A stretch of 64,000 bases of DNA from an uncultured Bacteroidota bacterium (GTDB lineage Bacteria > Bacteroidota > Bacteroidia > Bacteroidales > P3), in NCBI GenBank assembly GCA_902774845.1, contig CACYJU010000001.1:62001-126000 (forward strand). The letters run 5' to 3'. Both the position numbers and the translations under genes were made by a program. The notes under the pieces are model-generated. The model had not been told where the DNA came from. It ran no database searches and saw nothing but the letters and a program-made list of their open reading frames with translations. Shown here piece after piece: positions 4,475-51,052 of the stretch (its first letter is position 1; each line of letters begins with the position of its first letter).

Positions 4475-5173
4475 CGAAACTTTTTCCCCGCTCTACAACT
4501 ATATAAATATCTTTTTTCAAACACCCTCACCCCTCTCTAAAGAGAGGGGCAACCCATATTTAGAAAACCCAGCACTTTTATAAAAAACTCCTCATTATAG
4601 TTAGTAACAAAAAATCTCCAAAACCGTCAACCAAAAAGAAATTTTTTTTAAAGAATGTCCCAAAGAGAGACGCTACTATAAGTGAGAAGAATTTAAAAGA
4701 AAAAATAAAAATAAGTTTAAATATTTTTTACTTTTTTTCTCCTTTGTTAATTTGGTTGAAAACTACGTAACCATCGCTATTGCACCCCACCATTACATTC
4801 CATCTTCAACACCCTTTTCAACGCCCCATTCCATTCGTCATAAGCCATTTATCTTCCTTTTCAACAACTGTTCATTTCCACCTAGACAGCCTCCTGTTAA
4901 TTCTCACTTACGACCTCACTCTTTTGTGTAAAATCTTTCACAAATCGCCCCCTCATCAACAGGGTACCCCCCTACCCTACTTTTCAACACCACTTTTTCA
5001 ACCTTTTCAACAATTACTAACAAATAACCACGTAATCCCAAAAATTTTTCCAATCCTTCCCTTTCATCTACATAAAAATAGTTACTAACTCACACCTCTC
5101 TATCTTTCAGCAACATTGGCTGTTAGTTAAAAAGTTATTGCCTCCTCCAGCCATAGAGGAGGCTTATTTATTG

Positions 5174-5181
5174 TATCTTTG
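5174..5181 (+). promoter_or_regulatory. -7 box of rpiB
   Basis: TATCTTTG lies 20 bases before the rpiB ATG at 5202 and fits TAnnTTTG. The leader would be only about 15 bases. Confidence 0.6.
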
Positions 5182-5201
5182 CACCAAAATAAAAAACTAT
5201 T

Positions 5202-5642
5202 ATGGCAGAAATAATACCTATCGCCTGCGACCATGCAGGTTACGACTTGAAACAGAAAGTGATGGCCCGTCTCGTAGAGATGGGATTCGAACCGAAGGAC
5301 TTTGGCACCTACTCCTCCGACAGTTGCGATTATCCCGACTTTGCCCATCAGGTCGGCTCAGCCGTCAACAATGGCACCTACCGTCGCGGCATCGTCATCT
5401 GCGGTAGTGGCAACGGCGTTCAGATGACTGTCAACAAATACCCCAACGTGCGTTGCGCCCTCTGCTGGAATGTCGAGATAGCACATCTCGCACGTCAGCA
5501 CAACGACGCCAACATCCTCTCCCTCCCTGCCCGCTTCATCTCCGAAGACCTCGCTCTACAGATACTTAAGGAATATATCGAAACTCCCTTCGAAGGCGGC
5601 CGCCACCAGCGTCGTGTAGAGAAAATCAACAAGCTGATATAA
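5202..5642 (+). CDS. rpiB: Ribose-5-phosphate isomerase B
   Basis: RpiB interconverts ribulose 5-phosphate and ribose 5-phosphate in the pentose phosphate pathway. The 146-residue length is normal for the family. The N-terminal CDHAGYDLK (residues 9-17) forms the phosphate and sugar pocket, Cys67 in the ICGSGNGV loop is the expected catalytic base, and His100 in RQHNDAN is the expected ring-opening residue. It is followed by deoC, and the two together feed pentose phosphates and deoxynucleoside breakdown into central metabolism. It probably forms an operon with deoC. Confidence 0.95.
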   Translation: MAEIIPIACDHAGYDLKQKVMARLVEMGFEPKDFGTYSSDSCDYPDFAHQVGSAVNNGTYRRGIVICGSGNGVQMTVNKYPNVRCALCWNVEIAHLARQHNDANILSLPARFISEDLALQILKEYIETPFEGGRHQRRVEKINKLI

Positions 5643-5720
5643 AAGACATTGTCAGCTGTCTGTCGCCGTTCAAACCTATCACCTTTCAAGCGAAGCGAAA
5701 CTTTAAAACAAACACAACTT

Positions 5721-6473
5721 ATGGACGATCTCCGCACTCTTTTCAGTTGTATCGACCACACAACGCTCAACTCAACAGATACCGAATCCTCTGTCGAACA
5801 GTTCTGTCAAGAGACATTGAGGATGTGCGAAACCGTCGATGAGAAGGTGGCTGCTGTGTGTGTCTATCCTCCTTTTGTTGCCAAAGCCGCCGAGGTGTTG
5901 AAAGGGTCGGGCATAGCTGTCGCTGCCGTCGCTTGCGGCTTCCCCTCAGGTCAGATGCCTCTGCGGCTCAAACTCGAAGAGGTGAAATACGTGCTTGACC
6001 AAGGCGCCTCCGAAGTCGATATGGTTATCTCGCGGGGCGATGTGGTCGAAGGCAACCTTGTAAAGGTATTCGACGAGATTGCCGCCGTACGCGAATACTG
6101 CTTCAGCCAGAAACTGAAGGTCATCATCGAGACGGGCGAACTGAAAACCGAAGCCAACATAACAGCCGCCTCCCAAACGGCCATCGCTGCTGGAGCCGAC
6201 TTCATAAAGACTTCAACAGGCAAGATTCCCGTCGGCGCCACCATCGAGGCAGCTGAAATTATGTTAAAAGTTTTAACAAATAACATTGAAATTTCGAAAA
6301 AAACAATCGGTTTCAAGGCTTCGGGAGGCATCTCAACCATAGAACAGGCGATGGAATATGCCGACCTCACCCGTCTCCTTATGGGCGAACAATGCTTTAA
6401 TAAACAATATTTTAGAATCGGTGCAAGCCGTCTGACGTCTAAAGTGTTTGAACTTTTGAAGCAAAAAAATTAG
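5721..6473 (+). CDS. deoC: Deoxyribose-phosphate aldolase
   Basis: DeoC splits 2-deoxyribose 5-phosphate into acetaldehyde and glyceraldehyde 3-phosphate. With the ATG at 5721 the protein is 250 residues, a normal length. The Schiff-base lysine is Lys163 in ADFIKTSTGK, supported by Asp100 in ASEVDMV and Lys199 in GFKASGG. The frame can be extended to an ATG at 5649, but the extra 24 residues are not family-like. They are encoded by a stretch (5686-5699) that shares 14 bases with the element inside wbqC, so I reject that start. It lies 78 bases after rpiB. Confidence 0.95.
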   Translation: MDDLRTLFSCIDHTTLNSTDTESSVEQFCQETLRMCETVDEKVAAVCVYPPFVAKAAEVLKGSGIAVAAVACGFPSGQMPLRLKLEEVKYVLDQGASEVDMVISRGDVVEGNLVKVFDEIAAVREYCFSQKLKVIIETGELKTEANITAASQTAIAAGADFIKTSTGKIPVGATIEAAEIMLKVLTNNIEISKKTIGFKASGGISTIEQAMEYADLTRLLMGEQCFNKQYFRIGASRLTSKVFELLKQKN

Positions 6474-6492
6474 ATATATTACAGGAATTTTT

Positions 6493-6500
6493 TACTTTTG
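6493..6500 (+). promoter_or_regulatory. -7 box of the sphingolipid genes
   Basis: TACTTTTG lies 31 bases before the ATG at 6532. No clear -33 TTTG is present at the usual distance. Confidence 0.5.
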
Positions 6501-6531
6501 CAAGTTCCGTAATACGTCATTTGAATTATAG

Positions 6532-7716
6532 ATGAAACCGATTAGAAAGAAACTAGCACAGTATAGAGCGCCCCAGGAGGCTAAAGCCAAGGGCATCTAC
6601 CCCTATTTCACCCCTATTTCGTCCGAGCAGAACACCGAAGTACTCGTTCATGGGAAGAAAGTCCTCATGTTCGGATCCAATTCTTATCTGGGTCTTACCA
6701 ACCATCCCAAAATCAAAGAGGCAGCCAAAGCCGCCATCGACAAATACGGCACAGGATGCGCCGGTTCACCTTTCCTCAACGGCACTCTCGACATACACAT
6801 TCGTCTCCAGGACGAGCTCTGTGAGTTCCTGGGCAAGGACGCCGTGATGCTCTTCTCGGCGGGTTTCCTCGCCAACTCGGGCACCATCCCCTGCATCACG
6901 GGTCGTAACGACTTCGTCTATTTCGACGAGCGCGACCACGCCTCCATCATGGAAGGCAAGCAGATTACCTTCGCCGCCAACTACAAGTACAAGCACCTTA
7001 ATCTCGACGACCTCGAGCGCCTGCTACAGAAGAACAACCCCGACGACGGCAAGCTCGTAGTCACCGACGGCGTATTCTCGATGGAGGGCGATGTGGCTCA
7101 GGTCGATAAGATGGTCGAGCTCTGCAACAAATACAACGCCACCCTTATGGTTGATGAGGCTCACGGCCTCGGTGTCTTTGGACGCGAGGGACGCGGTGTC
7201 TGCGACCATTTCAACCAGCTCCCCAACGTCGATATCGTGATGGGCACTTTCTCCAAGTCGCTGGCTTCCATCGGCGGTTTCATCGCTGCCGATGCCGACA
7301 CCATCAACTGGATGAAACACAACGTCCGCCCCTATATCTTCACCGCTTCCATGACTCCCGCCACCACCGCCTCCGTCCTTGAGGCGCTACACATCATGCG
7401 CTCCGAACCTGAGCGCCAGAAGGCCCTCTGGGACAACACCCACTACGCCATGAAGGCTTTTCGCGACCTCGGATTCGAGATCGGCAACACCGAAACGCCT
7501 ATCATACCGCTCTTTGTGCGCGACAACGACAAGACCTTCCTCCTCACCCACATGCTGCTTGAAGAGGGCATCTTCGTCACACCAGTCATCGCACCTGCCG
7601 TACAGTCACAGGATACCCTCATCCGCGTCGCCCTGATGGCCACCCACACCAAAGCGCAGATCGACTTCGCTGTGGACAAAATCCACCAATGCTTCAAGAA
7701 ACTCGAGATACTTTAA
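6532..7716 (+). CDS. spt: Serine palmitoyltransferase-type PLP enzyme
   Basis: This 394-residue alpha-oxoamine synthase joins an amino acid to an acyl-CoA. In Bacteroidales this type is serine palmitoyltransferase, which makes 3-ketosphinganine for sphingolipids. PLP contacts are visible: His136 in DHASIM, Asp208 and His211 in VDEAHG, and the Schiff-base Lys242 in GTFSKSLASIGG. The fold is shared with 8-amino-7-oxononanoate synthase and KBL. The sphingolipid assignment rests on the N-terminal GIYPYFTPISSEQ segment, the lack of biotin or threonine-breakdown neighbours, and the tightly linked acyltransferase-like gene that starts 3 bases after its stop. Confidence 0.85.
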   Translation: MKPIRKKLAQYRAPQEAKAKGIYPYFTPISSEQNTEVLVHGKKVLMFGSNSYLGLTNHPKIKEAAKAAIDKYGTGCAGSPFLNGTLDIHIRLQDELCEFLGKDAVMLFSAGFLANSGTIPCITGRNDFVYFDERDHASIMEGKQITFAANYKYKHLNLDDLERLLQKNNPDDGKLVVTDGVFSMEGDVAQVDKMVELCNKYNATLMVDEAHGLGVFGREGRGVCDHFNQLPNVDIVMGTFSKSLASIGGFIAADADTINWMKHNVRPYIFTASMTPATTASVLEALHIMRSEPERQKALWDNTHYAMKAFRDLGFEIGNTETPIIPLFVRDNDKTFLLTHMLLEEGIFVTPVIAPAVQSQDTLIRVALMATHTKAQIDFAVDKIHQCFKKLEIL

Positions 7717-7719
7717 TAA

Positions 7720-8835
7720 ATGGTTGAAATCCACCCAGTAACCTCCCGCCGGGAACTCCACAGATTCATACAGTTCCCCAACCGTCTTTTCAAGAACGTT
7801 CCCACCTACATCCCGCCTCTCGTCAGCGACGAGGTCAAACTCCTGACCGACAAGAACCCCTCGCGTGAATACTGCGACATGCAGCTCTACCTCGCCTATC
7901 GAGGCAAGGAGATAGTGGGTCGCGTCGCCGCCATCATCAACCACCGTTGCAACGAGCGCTGGGAGAAGAAGGCTGTCCGCTTCGGATGGATGGATTTCAT
8001 CGAGGATTACGAGGTCTTCTCCGCTTTGATGGACGCTGTGGTCGATTTCGGACATCAGCACGGCATGGACGAGATAGAAGGACCTTTCGGCTTCACCGAT
8101 ATGGACAAAGAGTGCTGGGTTATCGAGGGTTTCGACGCTCGCCAGAACATCAGCACCCTCTACAATCCGGAGTATTACATCAAGTTCGTCGAGCGTTACG
8201 GCATGACTTCCAAGTGCCAGTGGGCGCAGTACAAGATGCCAGCTAACCAGCCGGTTCCTCCAAAGGTGGCACGCATCAACGGTCTTATCCTTGAGAAATA
8301 CAACCTCAAGCTCCTCAAATTCAAGAACCGCAAGGAGGTCTATCCCTACGCTCGCAAGTTCTTCCACACCCTCAACGACGCATTCAAAGACCTCTACGAC
8401 TTCGTCCCCCTTACCGACAAGGAGATTGATGTCTATGTCAAGGAATATTTCCCCTTCATTAACCTCGATTTTACCACTTTCGTCGTCGATAAGGACGATA
8501 ACTTGGTCGCCTTTGGACTTAGTGTGCCCGACCTCTCGAAAGCTTACCAGAAGGCCAAAGGACACCTTTTCCCCTTCGGCTGGATTTATATCCTTCGTGC
8601 GTTGAAGAAATTCGATACCATCGACGGCCTCCTCAACGGCGTCCATCCCGACTGGCAGAAACGTGGCGTACACTCCATCTACTATGCCGCCATGAGCGAA
8701 GCCGCCATTCGCTACAACGTCCATACCGCCTACACCAACCCCCAGATCATAGGCAACGAGGCCGTCAAGATCTGGAGCACCCAATACACCGCCACTCCCT
8801 TGATGAAGCGCGCCGTCTTCGGCAAGAAAATTTAA
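7720..8835 (+). CDS. GNAT-like acyltransferase, candidate sphingolipid enzyme
   Basis: This is a 371-residue protein that starts 3 bases after spt, so the two are surely co-transcribed and probably coupled. The N-terminal third has a GNAT-type pattern: EIVGRVAAIINH (about residues 64-75), followed by a GWMDFIEDYEVFSALMDAV helix and EIEGPFGFTDMD. The second half is a further acyltransferase-like region ending in an N-P-Q-I-x-G-N-E-A motif, where an acyl-CoA pyrophosphate loop would be expected. No membrane segment is present. Bacterial ceramide synthases described in Caulobacter belong to the GNAT superfamily, so N-acylation of a sphingoid base is a reasonable inference from position. It is not proven. 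Confidence 0.65.
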   Translation: MVEIHPVTSRRELHRFIQFPNRLFKNVPTYIPPLVSDEVKLLTDKNPSREYCDMQLYLAYRGKEIVGRVAAIINHRCNERWEKKAVRFGWMDFIEDYEVFSALMDAVVDFGHQHGMDEIEGPFGFTDMDKECWVIEGFDARQNISTLYNPEYYIKFVERYGMTSKCQWAQYKMPANQPVPPKVARINGLILEKYNLKLLKFKNRKEVYPYARKFFHTLNDAFKDLYDFVPLTDKEIDVYVKEYFPFINLDFTTFVVDKDDNLVAFGLSVPDLSKAYQKAKGHLFPFGWIYILRALKKFDTIDGLLNGVHPDWQKRGVHSIYYAAMSEAAIRYNVHTAYTNPQIIGNEAVKIWSTQYTATPLMKRAVFGKKI

Positions 8836-41785: not shown

Positions 41786-41810
41786 GAAAATAGGGGTACC
41801 TCAAAATCAC

Positions 41811-41867
41811 TTGTCGTGCAAGAGCGAGAGCAGAACAAAATTTGTTATGCCGAGCCGAAGCCGACAA
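41811..41867. repeat. CAAGAGCGAGAGC palindromic element, intergenic copy
   Basis: TTGTCG (41811-41816) and CGACAA (41862-41867) close the element. Inside are CAAGAGCGAGAGCA, a hairpin AACAAA-a-TTTGTT (41834-41846) and TGCCGAGCCG. The reverse strand of 45998-46061 in wbqC has the same conserved words with different, still complementary, stems. Confidence 0.75.
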
Positions 41868-42183
41868 CGTTGAACCGTAGGTGAAAAAACTGTCATAACT
41901 GTCAACTGTCAGATTTCATGCCTATCACTCTTGAAATCAACGGAATATGATTTCGACAACTGTCAGAAGACAAGGGGAATGTGACAAAAAAGGGCTTTTT
42001 TTAACAAAAATTAAGGCTCGAAAGTGATGCCGGATACCCATTTGGGGTGAATTTCTCCTTCCTTGGCGAACGGTTTTTAAACGTAAATTGCCATATAATT
42101 GCTCATTAATTAATGGATAATTTGTGAAAATTCATGTTAAAAGCTATTCTGTGAAGGGAGGTTGGTATGCGGAGCTTGTGCGG

Positions 42184-43203: not shown

Positions 43204-45843
43204 ATGAGACGTATAAATTTTTTCTTTATCTTGCTTGGAATCAGCGTGTGCCTTATGATGACGGCGGGCTGTGGCAAGAAAAAACATTTTATTAGCGACA
43301 AGAACTATCGCACTCAGGTGCACGAGGATTACCTGAACCGCACTCAGCTGGCTGAGGGACGCGGCGAGATCCTCTTCGCGGGTATGGACACCCTCGGAGT
43401 CAGGGAGCGTGAGGCGATGGAGTTCCTCTACGCTTATATGCCTTATAGCGACTTGGCCGACTACGACTTCGTATACTTCTTGAAACAAGTGCGTTACGCA
43501 TTCAAGGCGCAGGGGGAGATGGCTTGGGGCAAGGAGGTGCCGGAAGATATCTTCCGCCATTTCGTTTTGCCTTATCGTGTTAATAACGAGAACCTTGACA
43601 CGGCGAGGATGTATATGTACGAGGTGCTGAAAGATAGGGTGAAAGGGCTGACGATGGAAGAGGCGGCTCTGGAGGTGAACCATTGGTGTCATGAGCATGT
43701 GGCCTACAGGGGAGCCGACGCCCGCACGTCGGCTCCCCTGGCTACGATGAAGACCTCGTTGGGTCGTTGCGGCGAGGAGAGCACCTTCGCGGTCGCGGCC
43801 TTGCGGTCGGTAGGAATACCTGCACGCCAGTGTTATACGCCCCGTTGGGCACATTGCGACGACAACCACGCCTGGGTCGAGGTGTGGGTTTATAATCCCG
43901 AAACGAAAGCGGGTGAATGGAAATTCCTCGGAGCTTGCGAGCCCGACCCGAAGCTCAACATGGGTTGGTTTGCCGAGCCGTCGAGCCGCTGTATGATGGT
44001 GCATACCAAGGCGTTCGGACGCTATCATGGCGACGAGGAGGTGGTGAAAGGGACGGCTATGTACTCGGAGCTGAACCTGCTGTCGCATTACGCACCCGTC
44101 TGCAAGGCGGTGGTGACGGTAACGGACGAGTCGGGCAAGCCGAAAAGCGGCGCCCAGGTGAGGTTTAAACTCTACAACTATGCTGAATACTACACACTTG
44201 CGACGATAAAAAGTGACGAGCAGGGTAAAGCCAGCCTTACTACGGGATGGGGCGACCTGCTGGTGTGGGCCAGCGACGGCGAACGGTTTGGATATGTGAA
44301 GATGGACACGCGGGCGAACAAAGAGCTGACGATAAAGCTCGACCATCAGGTTGGGGAGGAATATGTTGAGAACGTGGATATCGTGCCTCCGGCGCCGAGC
44401 TGCGAGCTGACCAAGGCGACCGACGAGGAGCAGGCGGCCAACGGCAAAAGGATTGAATATGAGGATTCGGTACGCGGGGCTTATGTGTCTACCTTCTGGT
44501 GCAACAGGGAGAGAAGCGAATGGGGAGTGAAAGCCAACGCGAACATCACGGAGGAGCAGATGACTGAGATCATGCGCAGGTGCGAGGGCAACTACGAGGA
44601 GATAGCCCAGTTTCTGAACCGCCATACGGAGAAGACGGACTTCCCGCTCTACAGCTACCTCAAGTCGTATAGCGACAAGGACATGAGGGACATCACGGCC
44701 GACGTGCTCGAGGCCCACATAACGGAACTGGCTTCAACTTTGAACTATTCAGTTTATGAAAAAGGGCTGATGCCCGCGAGGGTGAGCAACGAGATGGTGA
44801 GAGGATGGAGGAAAGGGCTTGGAGAGGCTATGAAGAGCGAAGGGGTGAAGACGGTCAACCAGCTGATTGCATGGGTGAAAGAGAACGTGAAGGTGGACGA
44901 TACTGGCAACTACTATAACTGTCCGATATCGCCTATGGGTGTGTATGAACTGCGCCATTCGGATGCCCACTCGCGCGATATCTTCTTCGTGGCCGCATGC
45001 CGCTCGATGGGCATACCGTCATATATGGACAACGCAACGGATCAGATATTTGTCGCACCCGACGGAGAATGGACGGAGGTGACGTTTGCAGAGGGAGGGA
45101 AAGCGGAAAAGGAGAGTGACGGACAGAGCTCACTTACGGTTAAACTGTCAAGCAATCAGCCGATTGCTGATCCTCAATATTGGAAGCACTATACGATAGA
45201 GCGTTATGAGGATGGCGACTTCGTGTCGCTCGACTATGAGGACGACGAGAGGGTGGCGACCTTCCCCTACACGCTGACGCTCAAGCCGGGATACTACTGT
45301 CTCTCGACGGGCAACCGCGACGAGAAAGGGAGCGTGAGGTCAAGGTTGGAGTTCTTCGAGCTGAGAGAAGGCGAGACGAAAGAGATGGAGGTGGTGATAA
45401 GAGACCTCACGGAAGGAGCCGACGACGAGGTGGTGACGGTCGATAAAGGGTTTGAGGTGATAGGCGGGATGGCCACCATCGAAGACTATGCAGGAGAGAA
45501 AGGGTTTATCTTTGTGTCGCTGGGCGACTACCGCGAGCCATCAAAACATCTGGTGAAGGAGCTGATAGAGAAGCGAGAGCAGCTGGAGCGCTGGGGCGGT
45601 ATGATATACCTTCTGGTGCCCGAAGGGGTGCCGGCGATGAGCTGGGACATCCCGGGAGCGGATGTGGCGATATGGCGTAAGAGCTTAGACGACCCGCTGG
45701 AGAAGATGCTGGTGAAAGAGCTGGGAATCAGCGAGCCGGTGGTCTATCCTGTGGTGGCGTTGGTCAAAGGCGACGGACGGGTGACGTTCCACTCGAACGG
45801 CTACAAGATAGGCGTTGTCGAGCAGTTTATGCGTCAGCTTTAA
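43204..45843 (+). CDS. Transglutaminase-like lipoprotein
   Basis: This is an 879-residue envelope protein. Residues 1-23 are a lipoprotein signal (MMTAGC, Cys23). A transglutaminase-like Cys-His-Asp core lies at about 170-250: Cys near 189 in LGRCGEEST, His near 223 in DNHAWVEV and Asp near 247 in ACEPDP. It is followed by an Ig-like segment (about 295-390) and a second, degenerate transglutaminase-like region (about 560-640). The C-terminal 120 residues are thioredoxin-fold-like without CxxC. Such Bacteroidetes lipoproteins are thought to act on peptides or proteins; the substrate is unknown. The stop overlaps wbqC tail to tail by 17 bp. Confidence 0.85.
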   Translation: MRRINFFFILLGISVCLMMTAGCGKKKHFISDKNYRTQVHEDYLNRTQLAEGRGEILFAGMDTLGVREREAMEFLYAYMPYSDLADYDFVYFLKQVRYAFKAQGEMAWGKEVPEDIFRHFVLPYRVNNENLDTARMYMYEVLKDRVKGLTMEEAALEVNHWCHEHVAYRGADARTSAPLATMKTSLGRCGEESTFAVAALRSVGIPARQCYTPRWAHCDDNHAWVEVWVYNPETKAGEWKFLGACEPDPKLNMGWFAEPSSRCMMVHTKAFGRYHGDEEVVKGTAMYSELNLLSHYAPVCKAVVTVTDESGKPKSGAQVRFKLYNYAEYYTLATIKSDEQGKASLTTGWGDLLVWASDGERFGYVKMDTRANKELTIKLDHQVGEEYVENVDIVPPAPSCELTKATDEEQAANGKRIEYEDSVRGAYVSTFWCNRERSEWGVKANANITEEQMTEIMRRCEGNYEEIAQFLNRHTEKTDFPLYSYLKSYSDKDMRDITADVLEAHITELASTLNYSVYEKGLMPARVSNEMVRGWRKGLGEAMKSEGVKTVNQLIAWVKENVKVDDTGNYYNCPISPMGVYELRHSDAHSRDIFFVAACRSMGIPSYMDNATDQIFVAPDGEWTEVTFAEGGKAEKESDGQSSLTVKLSSNQPIADPQYWKHYTIERYEDGDFVSLDYEDDERVATFPYTLTLKPGYYCLSTGNRDEKGSVRSRLEFFELREGETKEMEVVIRDLTEGADDEVVTVDKGFEVIGGMATIEDYAGEKGFIFVSLGDYREPSKHLVKELIEKREQLERWGGMIYLLVPEGVPAMSWDIPGADVAIWRKSLDDPLEKMLVKELGISEPVVYPVVALVKGDGRVTFHSNGYKIGVVEQFMRQL

Positions 45844-46579
45844 GAGAGGAAAGGTATTTCCTGGCTTCTGCCGGACCGATATTGAAGAGGAGGTCTATTA
45901 TGCTGAGGTTGGGGCAGAAACCGAGCCTGTCGGCCCAAAGTTGGTAGTACTTTAATTGCTTGAATGCTTGAATGCTTGAATGCCTCCTTTCGGAGTCATT
46001 GTCTCTGCGGCTCGGCAATACTTGAGCAAGCTCAGTATTGCTCTCGCTCTTGTGAGACAATTGCGTTAGTGGGTTCGCTTCGCTTGAGGGGTTGTGGGCG
46101 AACATATTCCGCATATCCAACTGCTTGTTGCTGGCTGCCTGCTGAAGGGTGACATAATCCTCGCTATACTGCAGCTGGCAAGAGATGTTGAGTTTGGTGA
46201 GGAGGTAACGCATGATCTCGCTGTTGAGGTCGATGAGGCGGTCGTGGCGACGAAGCAGGATAGCCTTCAGGTCGTCCCAGAGATAGAGGAAGTATGGAGT
46301 CATGCTGTAAGCTGATTCTATGGCTCTTATGTGCTGGATGTTCCACCTCTCGGCGTAGGAGACGGTTATGTCGGAAGTGGGGGTGTGGTTGCCTGAGGTG
46401 CGGACGACGGGGACGCTCAGCCGCATGATGCCGTTGGCGGTCATGATCTCGCAACGGTTGCGGTGGGTCTGCTTGGGATAGGTCTCGTGGATCTCGATGG
46501 TGGCGCAAGGGCAGTCGAGCAGGAGCGCAACATAGCTGAGAGGAGGCAGATAGGAGGTGGGAAGGAGCAATTGATTCAT
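45827..46579 (-). CDS. WbqC family protein with in-frame repeat insertion
   Basis: This is a 250-residue WbqC-like protein; the family is found with O-antigen and glycolipid genes and has unclear enzymology. The N-terminus (LLLPTSYLPPLSYVALLL), IEIHETYPKQTHRNRCEI (about 29-46) and the C-terminal YYQLWADRLGFCPNLSIIDLLFNIGP are family-like. Between about residues 164 and 210 lies an unrelated Ser/Asn/Arg-rich segment. It is encoded by a palindromic element plus an octamer array (45953-46090), still in frame. The family is normally about 200 residues, so the insert explains the excess. A TACCTTTG box lies only 4 bases before the ATG, so the transcript may be leaderless. Confidence 0.85.
   Translation of the reverse strand: MNQLLLPTSYLPPLSYVALLLDCPCATIEIHETYPKQTHRNRCEIMTANGIMRLSVPVVRTSGNHTPTSDITVSYAERWNIQHIRAIESAYSMTPYFLYLWDDLKAILLRRHDRLIDLNSEIMRYLLTKLNISCQLQYSEDYVTLQQAASNKQLDMRNMFAHNPSSEANPLTQLSHKSESNTELAQVLPSRRDNDSERRHSSIQAFKQLKYYQLWADRLGFCPNLSIIDLLFNIGPAEARKYLSSLKADA
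45953..45983. repeat. Octamer array TTGAATGC inside wbqC
   Basis: Three exact TTGAATGC units follow TAATTGC. On the coding strand it encodes HSSIQAFKQ. The same array type encodes HSSIQAIKQ in queA. Confidence 0.9.
45998..46061. repeat. CAAGAGCGAGAGC palindromic element inside wbqC
   Basis: Closing arms ATTGTCTC (45998-46005) and GAGACAAT (46054-46061) are exact complements. The inner hairpin (46015-46041) is 12 bp with one bulged T and an AA loop. On the minus strand the conserved words are CAAGAGCGAGAGCA and TGCCGAGCCG, shared with 41811-41867. Confidence 0.85.
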
Positions 46580-49786: not shown

Positions 49787-51052
49787 CTAATTGTCATGAG
49801 GAAGGAAGAGACAGCTGTCGCCATAGCTCAGGAATCGGAAACCATGATCCAAAGCAAACCGATAACACCTTTTCCACTCGTCGCCTATGAGGGCCGAAAC
49901 CAAGAGGAGCAAGGTGCTCTTAGGCTGATGGAAGTTGGTTATCATACCGCTGATTACATGATATTTATAGCCAGGAGCGATAATCAGCTGGGTCTCGCCC
50001 AAGAGGATGTCGGCATCATGCCGAGCCATCCAGTCGAGCACGTTGGAGTAGGACTTGCGGAAGTCGATCTCATGAGGGTTGTCATAAGGCTCCCATTGCG
50101 AGACGTGCATAGCGTCGACCGAAGAATTCCCCTCCAGCTGAACGCCGAACCAATAGATTGATTCCAAGGTGCGTACGCTTGTGGTGCCTACGGCTATGAG
50201 AGGTTTTCCGTAGTGGTTCAAGATGTTCTGTATGGTGCTGCGGTTGACCACTATCTTCTCGGTGTGCATCTCGTGGCCGCCTACGGTGTCGCTGTTGACC
50301 GGCTTGAAGGTGCCGGCACCCACATGGAGGGTGAGGAAGTCGGTCAGGATGCCTCTGGATTGAAGCTGGCTGAAGACCCTCTCGGTGAAGTGAAGGCCTG
50401 CGGTAGGAGCTGCGACCGAGCCCATCGGGTCGGCGTAGACGGTCTGGTAGCGCTCGTTGTCGTCGGCTTCGGCGTTGCGATGCAGGTAAGGAGGCAGCGG
50501 GATGACGCCCGCCTGCTCTATCACCTCGGCGAAGCTTATGCCGCCCGTCCAGCTGAAGTCTATAATCCAGGCGTTGCCTACAGCCTCCCTGCGGGTGGCG
50601 GTGAGAATGGTATTAATGCCTGATTGCTTGATTGCTTGGATGCTTGAGTGTTCGCTGACCACTGACTGCTGACCGCTGACCACTTTCTCCAGACATCCGC
50701 TTTTCCATTTCTTGTTGTTCCCCACGAAGCAGAGCCAGGTGCAATGCTCACGTTGTTCGAAAGCCTCGGATATGGCCGTCTGATAGGGTTCGAGGCAGAA
50801 GATCTCTATGGTCGAGCCCGTCTCCTTCTGGAACACCAGCCGAGCGTGGATGACCTTGGTGTTGTTGAAGACCAGGAGCGATCCGTCGGGTAGGAGGTTC
50901 GGGATATTCGAAAAAGTGTCCTCAGAGATATTTCCGTTGCGGAAAACCAGAAGCTTCGACTTGTCGCGTTCAGCCAGAGGATATTTCGCTATGCGATCTT
51001 CAGGCAGAGGGTAGTCGTAGTCGGCTATAGCTATCGTTTTAGGGTCAGTCAT
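49787..51052 (-). CDS. queA: tRNA preQ1(34) S-adenosylmethionine ribosyltransferase-isomerase
   Basis: QueA transfers and isomerises the ribosyl group of SAM onto preQ1 in tRNA, giving epoxyqueuosine. The 421-residue protein belongs to the longer Bacteroidetes form. Signatures are LPEDRIAKYPLAERDKSKLL (about 15-34), LVFNNTKVIHARL (about 63-75), SVAAPTAGLHFT (about 214-225) and HVGAGTFKPV (about 246-255). Residues about 124-147 are a low-complexity insert (SGQQSVVSEHSSIQAIKQSG) encoded by heptamer and octamer arrays at 50612-50683. The ATG at 51052 (MTDPKT) overlaps pssA by 8 bp; another ATG three codons upstream is possible. Confidence 0.93.
   Translation of the reverse strand: MTDPKTIAIADYDYPLPEDRIAKYPLAERDKSKLLVFRNGNISEDTFSNIPNLLPDGSLLVFNNTKVIHARLVFQKETGSTIEIFCLEPYQTAISEAFEQREHCTWLCFVGNNKKWKSGCLEKVVSGQQSVVSEHSSIQAIKQSGINTILTATRREAVGNAWIIDFSWTGGISFAEVIEQAGVIPLPPYLHRNAEADDNERYQTVYADPMGSVAAPTAGLHFTERVFSQLQSRGILTDFLTLHVGAGTFKPVNSDTVGGHEMHTEKIVVNRSTIQNILNHYGKPLIAVGTTSVRTLESIYWFGVQLEGNSSVDAMHVSQWEPYDNPHEIDFRKSYSNVLDWMARHDADILLGETQLIIAPGYKYHVISGMITNFHQPKSTLLLLVSALIGDEWKRCYRFALDHGFRFLSYGDSCLFLPHDN
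50612..50683. repeat. Octamer plus heptamer arrays inside queA
   Basis: 50612-50650 is an octamer-type run (TTGATTGC, TTGGATGC, TTGAGTG). 50653-50682 is heptameric (TGACCAC, TGACTGC, TGACCGC, TGACCAC). Together they add about 23 codons without breaking the frame. Confidence 0.85.

Follow-up and report, generated by a model that had tools for sequence, protein, structure and literature searches.

An in-frame palindromic element of about 80 nt in wbqC of a Bacteroidales bacterium and its relatives in other genes and genomes

Rickettsia palindromic elements (RPEs) are small palindromic repeats of several subfamilies, found in frame in unrelated housekeeping genes, translated, and variably present from one species to another (PMC10969869, PMC4316617). 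They were reportedly described by Ogata et al. (2000, 2002). Further reports of translated palindromes concern Wolbachia, Methanocaldococcus and REPs of several phyla (PMC3733652, PMC2996958). REPs measure 20–40 bp and carry a GTAG or CGTC tag, the GTAG families being tied to RAYT transposases (PMC3733652). Both kinds have been located inside open reading frames (ORFs) in many bacteria, with uvrA and pseudouridine synthase genes among the hosts, and in recB of two Xanthomonas species different repeats occupy the same site (PMC3733652). The SDRs of Nostoc (Elhai et al. 2008) are reported to be tiny structured elements with compensatory changes, lying inside heptamer tandem repeats. SDRs are cyanobacterial and 21–27 nt long, and in-frame coding is not known to be their hallmark. 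The BrickBuilt MITEs of Porphyromonas gingivalis are curated as intergenic, non-coding repeats (PMC5771137). Their make-up is one of tandem repeats. No report of translated palindromes in Bacteroidales was found in the literature searched, most subscription journals being outside its scope.

Here we describe a palindromic element lying in frame in a wbqC-like gene, within a 64,000-nt stretch of DNA from an uncultured member of the Bacteroidales (the whole stretch analysed, hereafter the window). The element resembles RPEs in that it too occurs in frame in unrelated protein genes, and in having several subfamilies and a variable presence. It differs from them by its phylum, its length of about 80 nt, a conserved internal loop, a second 3′ hairpin, frequent octamer arrays and the use of three reading phases. 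Any kinship is drawn by analogy only: the likeness is one of behavior and shared ancestry is not shown. The protein-coding palindromes of Wolbachia, their M. jannaschii equivalents and the PARCEL repeats (PMC2996958) are likewise translated within proteins, in other taxa. The double occupancy of recB in Xanthomonas is paralleled by the two different elements that we found in WbqC of two genomes. As with the intragenic REPs, a UvrA-type gene and a pseudouridine synthase gene are among the hosts. Like the Nostoc SDRs, as generally understood, the Bacteroidales element is structured, shows compensatory changes and is embedded in short tandem repeats. The BrickBuilt MITEs are also repeats of Bacteroidales but, unlike our in-frame element, are intergenic and non-coding.

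Translated palindromic repeats have so far passed for an oddity seen chiefly in Rickettsia and Wolbachia. The same outcome, with translation inferred, is now seen in gut and rumen Bacteroidales, in enough species that, within one gene, sites holding the element, sites lacking it and sites holding a different one can be compared; such a comparison lets the tolerance of inserts and the origin of new protein segments be tested.

The insert in wbqC and its relatives

The features of the wbqC locus are given in Table 1. The insert encodes the predicted 45-residue peptide PSSEANPLT...AFKQ, in which SESNTELAQVLPSR and HSSIQAFK can be read. On the coding strand the octamer CACTAACG is followed by the element and then by the GCATTCAA array; octamers resembling CACTAACG are also present upstream of other element copies. 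The element in WbqC is not a chance sequence, as shown by its model score (97.2 bits, E=1.7e-20, covariance model, search of the window), its many copies in the genome and its RNA fold (z=-5.45 against dinucleotide shuffles). The training set of the covariance model contains the WbqC copy itself, which bears on this score. No solved structure matching WbqC by sequence was found.

Table 1. Features of the wbqC locus and the second element copy (positions in the window)
Feature	Position	Strand	Details and support
wbqC-like gene, host of the insert	45827-46579	minus	250 aa; ORF call; Pfam WbqC PF08889, E=2.5e-32; homologues in 104/120 congeneric genomes
Whole insert, 135 nt, codons 164-208	45956-46090	minus	protein alignment with homologues; translated in frame (inferred)
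Palindromic element core, 83 nt	45981-46063	minus	fold, covariance model, covariation
Outer stem, 5′ arm ATTGTCTC	46054-46061	minus	fold; pairs with 45998-46005
Outer stem, 3′ arm GAGACAAT	45998-46005	minus	fold
3′ hairpin CTCC GAAA GGAG	45984-45995	minus	fold; helix 3 pairs covary
Octamer array (GCATTCAA)3.4, downstream of element	45957-45983	minus	TRF: 3.4 copies, 100% matches; translation
Octamer CACTAACG, directly upstream of element	46064-46071	minus	sequence
Conserved C-terminal WbqC motif YYQLWADRLGFCPNLSIIDLLFNIGP, after insert	45827-45955	minus	alignment with homologues
Second element copy, diverged, intergenic	41808-41879	plus	42.4 bits, E=9.4e-8, covariance model

The congeneric set comprises 120 genomes including that of the window (G000), or 119 without it, and WbqC homologues were recovered in 103 of the latter. 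Nearly all of them, two close relatives excepted, align only over residues ~1–165 and ~205–247 and, where aligned without the insert, pass from 'MF.H' to 'YYQ.W' through a short loop. The spacing between these two motifs is 45 residues in G000 against 13 in G112 (locus L187), the nearest insert-free homologue, a net gain of ~32 residues. The element was not found in WbqC of G112 nor of the other congeners searched (~100), save G064 and G073.

In G064 the insert is present and identical over its 135 nt while the remaining aligned gene differs by 3.2%, an identity with P=0.012 at the gene's own divergence; it could possibly reflect constraint or recombination rather than neutrality. Since G000 and G064 are syntenic over much of the window, with 77–97% DNA identity, their common insert may have been inherited or may have been recombined. 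As a separate observation, window positions 5075-8835 are 96.7% identical to G064, compared with the 77–97% range along the window, which suggests recombination. In G073, whose WbqC shares 66% protein identity, the same loop is filled by an element that belongs to another subfamily (AATTCTGCGATTAAG...). It is not read in the phase used in G000, and the octamer that borders it on either side, ATCAACRT, also differs.

The original prediction, made from sequence alone, was that a palindromic repeat translated inside wbqC adds about 45 residues near the C-terminal motif without breaking the frame. This held, translation still being inferred. It had also placed the element in a family represented elsewhere in the window, which held for one other copy (Table 1), and had proposed that an alignment of homologues would define the segment as an insert, as it did. 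The outcome that would have refuted it, homologues all bearing the segment, did not arise, G064 and G073 being the only exceptions among congeners without it.

Structure and distribution of the element

Read on the coding strand, the element consists of an outer stem of ~8 bp, an asymmetric internal loop (GAGCGAGAGC / GCCGAGCC), which is conserved, and an apical hairpin, which varies; these are followed by a second hairpin, CTCC-GAAA-GGAG, and by a terminal GCA. Stem sequences vary freely among copies while pairing is kept, G-U pairs included. Double-sided changes were observed at 17 of 23 pairs among 38 matches from the genome of the window itself, at 22 of 23 among 91 distinct copies from other congeners, and again at 22 of 23 among 36 distinct copies found elsewhere in the order. 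The covariation score was not attained by any of 500 shuffles, and the structures collapse when slid. The alignments were fitted to the covariance model, which biases them toward structure; the excess is large nonetheless. The conserved trait of the element is its secondary structure, as DNA or RNA, not its peptide.

BLAST showed the element to be repeated in G000, and a covariance model (R1) returned 48 matches at E<=1, 41 of them at E<=3.1e-5, the E-values of the covariance models being rough. Most copies are intergenic. Matches occur in 93 of the 119 other congeneric genomes. With model R2, an order-wide sample of 198 genomes gave matches in 27, which represent 22 of the 151 genera sampled, and single genomes held up to 21 copies or more. 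Neither the element in 12 loci nor the surroundings of the WbqC insert gave an Rfam match at or above the gathering score. The family is thus missing from Rfam and present across Bacteroidales. An origin as part of a phage or plasmid was rejected, as no element match was obtained in the phages, plasmids and viral contigs searched.

Two further loci or groups of loci stand apart. In three species, elements of one subfamily (L114, L286 and L119) lie in a context of ~100–140 bp that is 94–95% identical; these are perhaps an RNA with a role. At a contig end (L110, G048:C68), an element lies just ahead of a sequence resembling the start of a 16S rRNA gene (GAAGAGTTTGATCCTGGCTC).

In-frame copies, reading phases and octamer arrays

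Four further in-frame copies were identified in G000: in a shikimate kinase, a UvrA paralogue, the tRNA methylthiotransferase MtaB and, within an N-terminal extension, a pseudouridine synthase. Pfam or NCBIfam domains resume on both sides of the inserts within single open frames; MtaB with its insert scores 394.9 for a family cut-off of 357. Shikimate kinase matches the solved structure 3vaa in two segments, and its insert maps to the break that separates them, between residues 93 and 97 of 3vaa. In the three hosts compared (shikimate kinase, UvrA paralogue and MtaB), no element was found in G064, G073 or G112, and the corresponding loops in G073 or G064 often hold just tandem repeats of 7–8 nt.

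Beyond this genome, QueG of G042 (L292:1177-2370) carries three tandem in-frame copies of 26 codons each, plus an octamer array, between its two iron-sulphur motifs. Other copies supported by homology lie in UppP (G124), a protein-ADP-ribose hydrolase/macrodomain protein (G070), an AlaX-like protein (G103) and, near the N terminus, HsdS of G254, from another family of the order (L320:1442-2767); weaker cases without Pfam support occur in G090, G089 and G088. Altogether the element is known in frame in about nine genes besides wbqC, in this and related bacteria, its translation there being inferred. It is a real and general feature, wider than the original prediction could see.

The copies are read in three phases: WbqC, shikimate kinase, UvrA and pseudouridine synthase of G000 use phase 0, MtaB uses phase 2, and WbqC of G073 uses phase 1. 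A conserved function of the peptide was rejected, since three phases are used and the peptides differ. The original prediction had further proposed that the encoded words recur in other proteins and had compared the insert to Rickettsia palindromic elements. The words do recur: QLSHKSESN...LPSRRDNDSE is encoded in frame in the shikimate kinase, the UvrA paralogue and the pseudouridine synthase of G000. The comparison held for behavior, not for kinship. Two refinements are required: what is kept is DNA or RNA structure rather than peptide, and Rickettsia is not alone in having translated palindromes, as the reports cited above indicate.

Every intragenic copy found keeps the frame. This is partly a matter of ascertainment, intragenic copies having been sought as open frames over the element; a non-exhaustive inspection of the neighbors of the copies in G000 itself revealed no obvious gene split by an element. 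All homology-supported internal insertions are in sense orientation, whereas intergenic copies between co-directional genes occur, by inspection, in both. Sense peptides are hydrophilic (mean GRAVY of open frames -1.37 to -0.58), and antisense peptides neutral to hydrophobic (0.01 to 0.36), with antisense frames more often open. The octamers GCATTCAA, GCAATCAA and GCACTCAC encode AFKHSSIQ, AIKQSSNQ and ALTHSRTH, respectively, in all frames of one strand, and a stop codon is present on the other strand. In four of five whole inserts examined, all three antisense frames contain stops. We infer that the open frames and sense orientation result from the frame-neutral arrays, the antisense stops and the hydrophobic antisense peptides. 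The orientation was not retained as a sign of a strand-specific mechanism, antisense array stops and hydrophobic antisense peptides being sufficient. Frame-neutral octamer coding is a simple reason for the survival of genic insertions in one orientation only.

Tandem repeats were present at 17 of 92 element flanks, compared with 17% of 23 non-coding control positions, and no enrichment is apparent. A general targeting of elements to tandem repeats is not claimed, the flanks being enriched over all positions but not over non-coding ones. The link between element and array therefore rests mainly on the intragenic cases.

Arrays without an element were also encountered within genes. QueA of the window (Pfam Queuosine_synth, E=1.8e-97; ORF 49787-51052) contains an in-frame heptamer-like plus octamer array (VVSGQQSVVSEHSSIQAIKQ) at 50617-50681 on the minus strand. 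A MutS-family protein of G000 (MutS_V, L023:5824-7449) has a long octamer array, with about nine AIKQSSNQ-like repeats before the Walker motif, and a TMEM260-like membrane protein (L028:597-2807) has one (ALKHSSIQASKHSSIQAIKHS) between hydrophobic stretches.

Proposed origin of the insert and alternatives

Repetitiveness, compensatory conservation of structure, presence varying between close relatives and frame-keeping in the intragenic copies seen are all shown. We consider it likely that the WbqC insert is one copy of a dispersed element of ~80 nt, non-autonomous and able to form hairpins, that is set among short octamer repeats, entered a variable loop of WbqC and is translated there as added sequence. 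The element would spread selfishly, selection merely filtering the sites where copies may persist. Genic copies would persist in loops between conserved motifs, in the stop-free hydrophilic orientation and where the length added in total brings the gene back into frame. Arrays of octamers may help copies to survive in genes because they encode the same eight-residue cycle in the three frames of one strand and stops on the other. That the element is translated is an inference from open frames and homology. It rests on draft genomes alone, many of which were assembled from metagenomes, without support from protein or RNA data.

The strongest alternative is that arrays came first. Octamer or heptamer repeats would arise and grow through slippage in loops that tolerate them. 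The element would be secondary, arriving by insertion or by template switching between arrays, so that the primary phenomenon would be repeat growth in protein loops. In favor of this are the loops of shikimate kinase, the UvrA paralogue and MtaB in G073 or G064, which have tandem repeats without the element, and the element-free in-frame arrays in QueA, the MutS-like protein and the TMEM260-like protein. Such arrays in the same loops leave it possible that arrays precede elements. However, many element copies have no adjoining tandem repeat, no enrichment was shown over the non-coding background, and the three tandem copies in QueG imply that the element itself multiplies too. On balance we lean slightly against this view.

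It is unlikely that the insert is kept as an mRNA hairpin regulating wbqC, whether by pausing translation, by affecting mRNA stability or by serving as a protein-binding site. The strong conservation of structure, including G-U pairs, and the unchanged insert in G000 and G064, where the rest of wbqC has diverged, would agree with such a role. Against it, the host genes are functionally unrelated, most copies are intergenic, and of the four internal insertions in G000 three have no counterpart in the closest relatives.

Still less plausible is that the insert is present in the mRNA but not in the protein, either because it is spliced out or because ribosomes bypass it. Bypassing would be consistent with a strong hairpin, and proteomic data are lacking, yet removal or bypass requires neither a kept frame nor an absence of stops, and all intragenic cases are open and in phase, in three phases. 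An assembly error or a decaying gene, which draft and often metagenome-assembled sources and the breaking of contigs at repeats might suggest, is all but excluded by the same insert in the independent assembly G064, by the conserved motifs flanking it, by the core nature of several host genes and by MtaB passing its family cut-off despite its insert.

Apart from these alternatives, a bolder form of the dispersed-element reading, which we consider slightly less likely than not, is that uncatalogued, order-wide structured elements of ~80 nt and frame-neutral octamer arrays repeatedly colonize the same loops of core proteins across species, with different subfamilies and in different frames. This would be a loop-generating system independent of peptide sequence; its movement would possibly involve no Y1 transposase and proceed through an RNA or single-stranded intermediate.

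As for how the dispersed element moves, no transposase or other mobilizing gene was found adjoining element copies. Of 14 carrier genomes, 8, G000 among them, lack the Y1_Tnp domain (PF01797), with the reservation that assemblies are incomplete, and a Y1/REP transposase is an unlikely mover. Identification as a GTAG-tagged REP was rejected on this count and because the element is ~80 nt long with two hairpins, reads CAATTG...GGAGGCA and has no GTAG at its ends. A CGTC-tagged REP, with its stem of 8–9 bp, loop of 4–5 nt, terminal CGTC and CCA-like tail, was likewise rejected, the element being longer and two-hairpin; CGTC occurs inside some congeneric copies, not as an invariant tag. A MITE is expected to have terminal inverted repeats and a target-site duplication and to be moved in trans by a transposase. 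The present element is palindromic as a whole. Direct repeats border some copies but fall in octamer arrays, where a duplication cannot be distinguished from array units. The element was not retained as part of an insertion sequence, as the ORFs beside two copies in G003 show no evident transposase (ORF listing, without Pfam search). In this same genome, identical element copies form part of composite repeats that are intergenic and reach ~400 bp.
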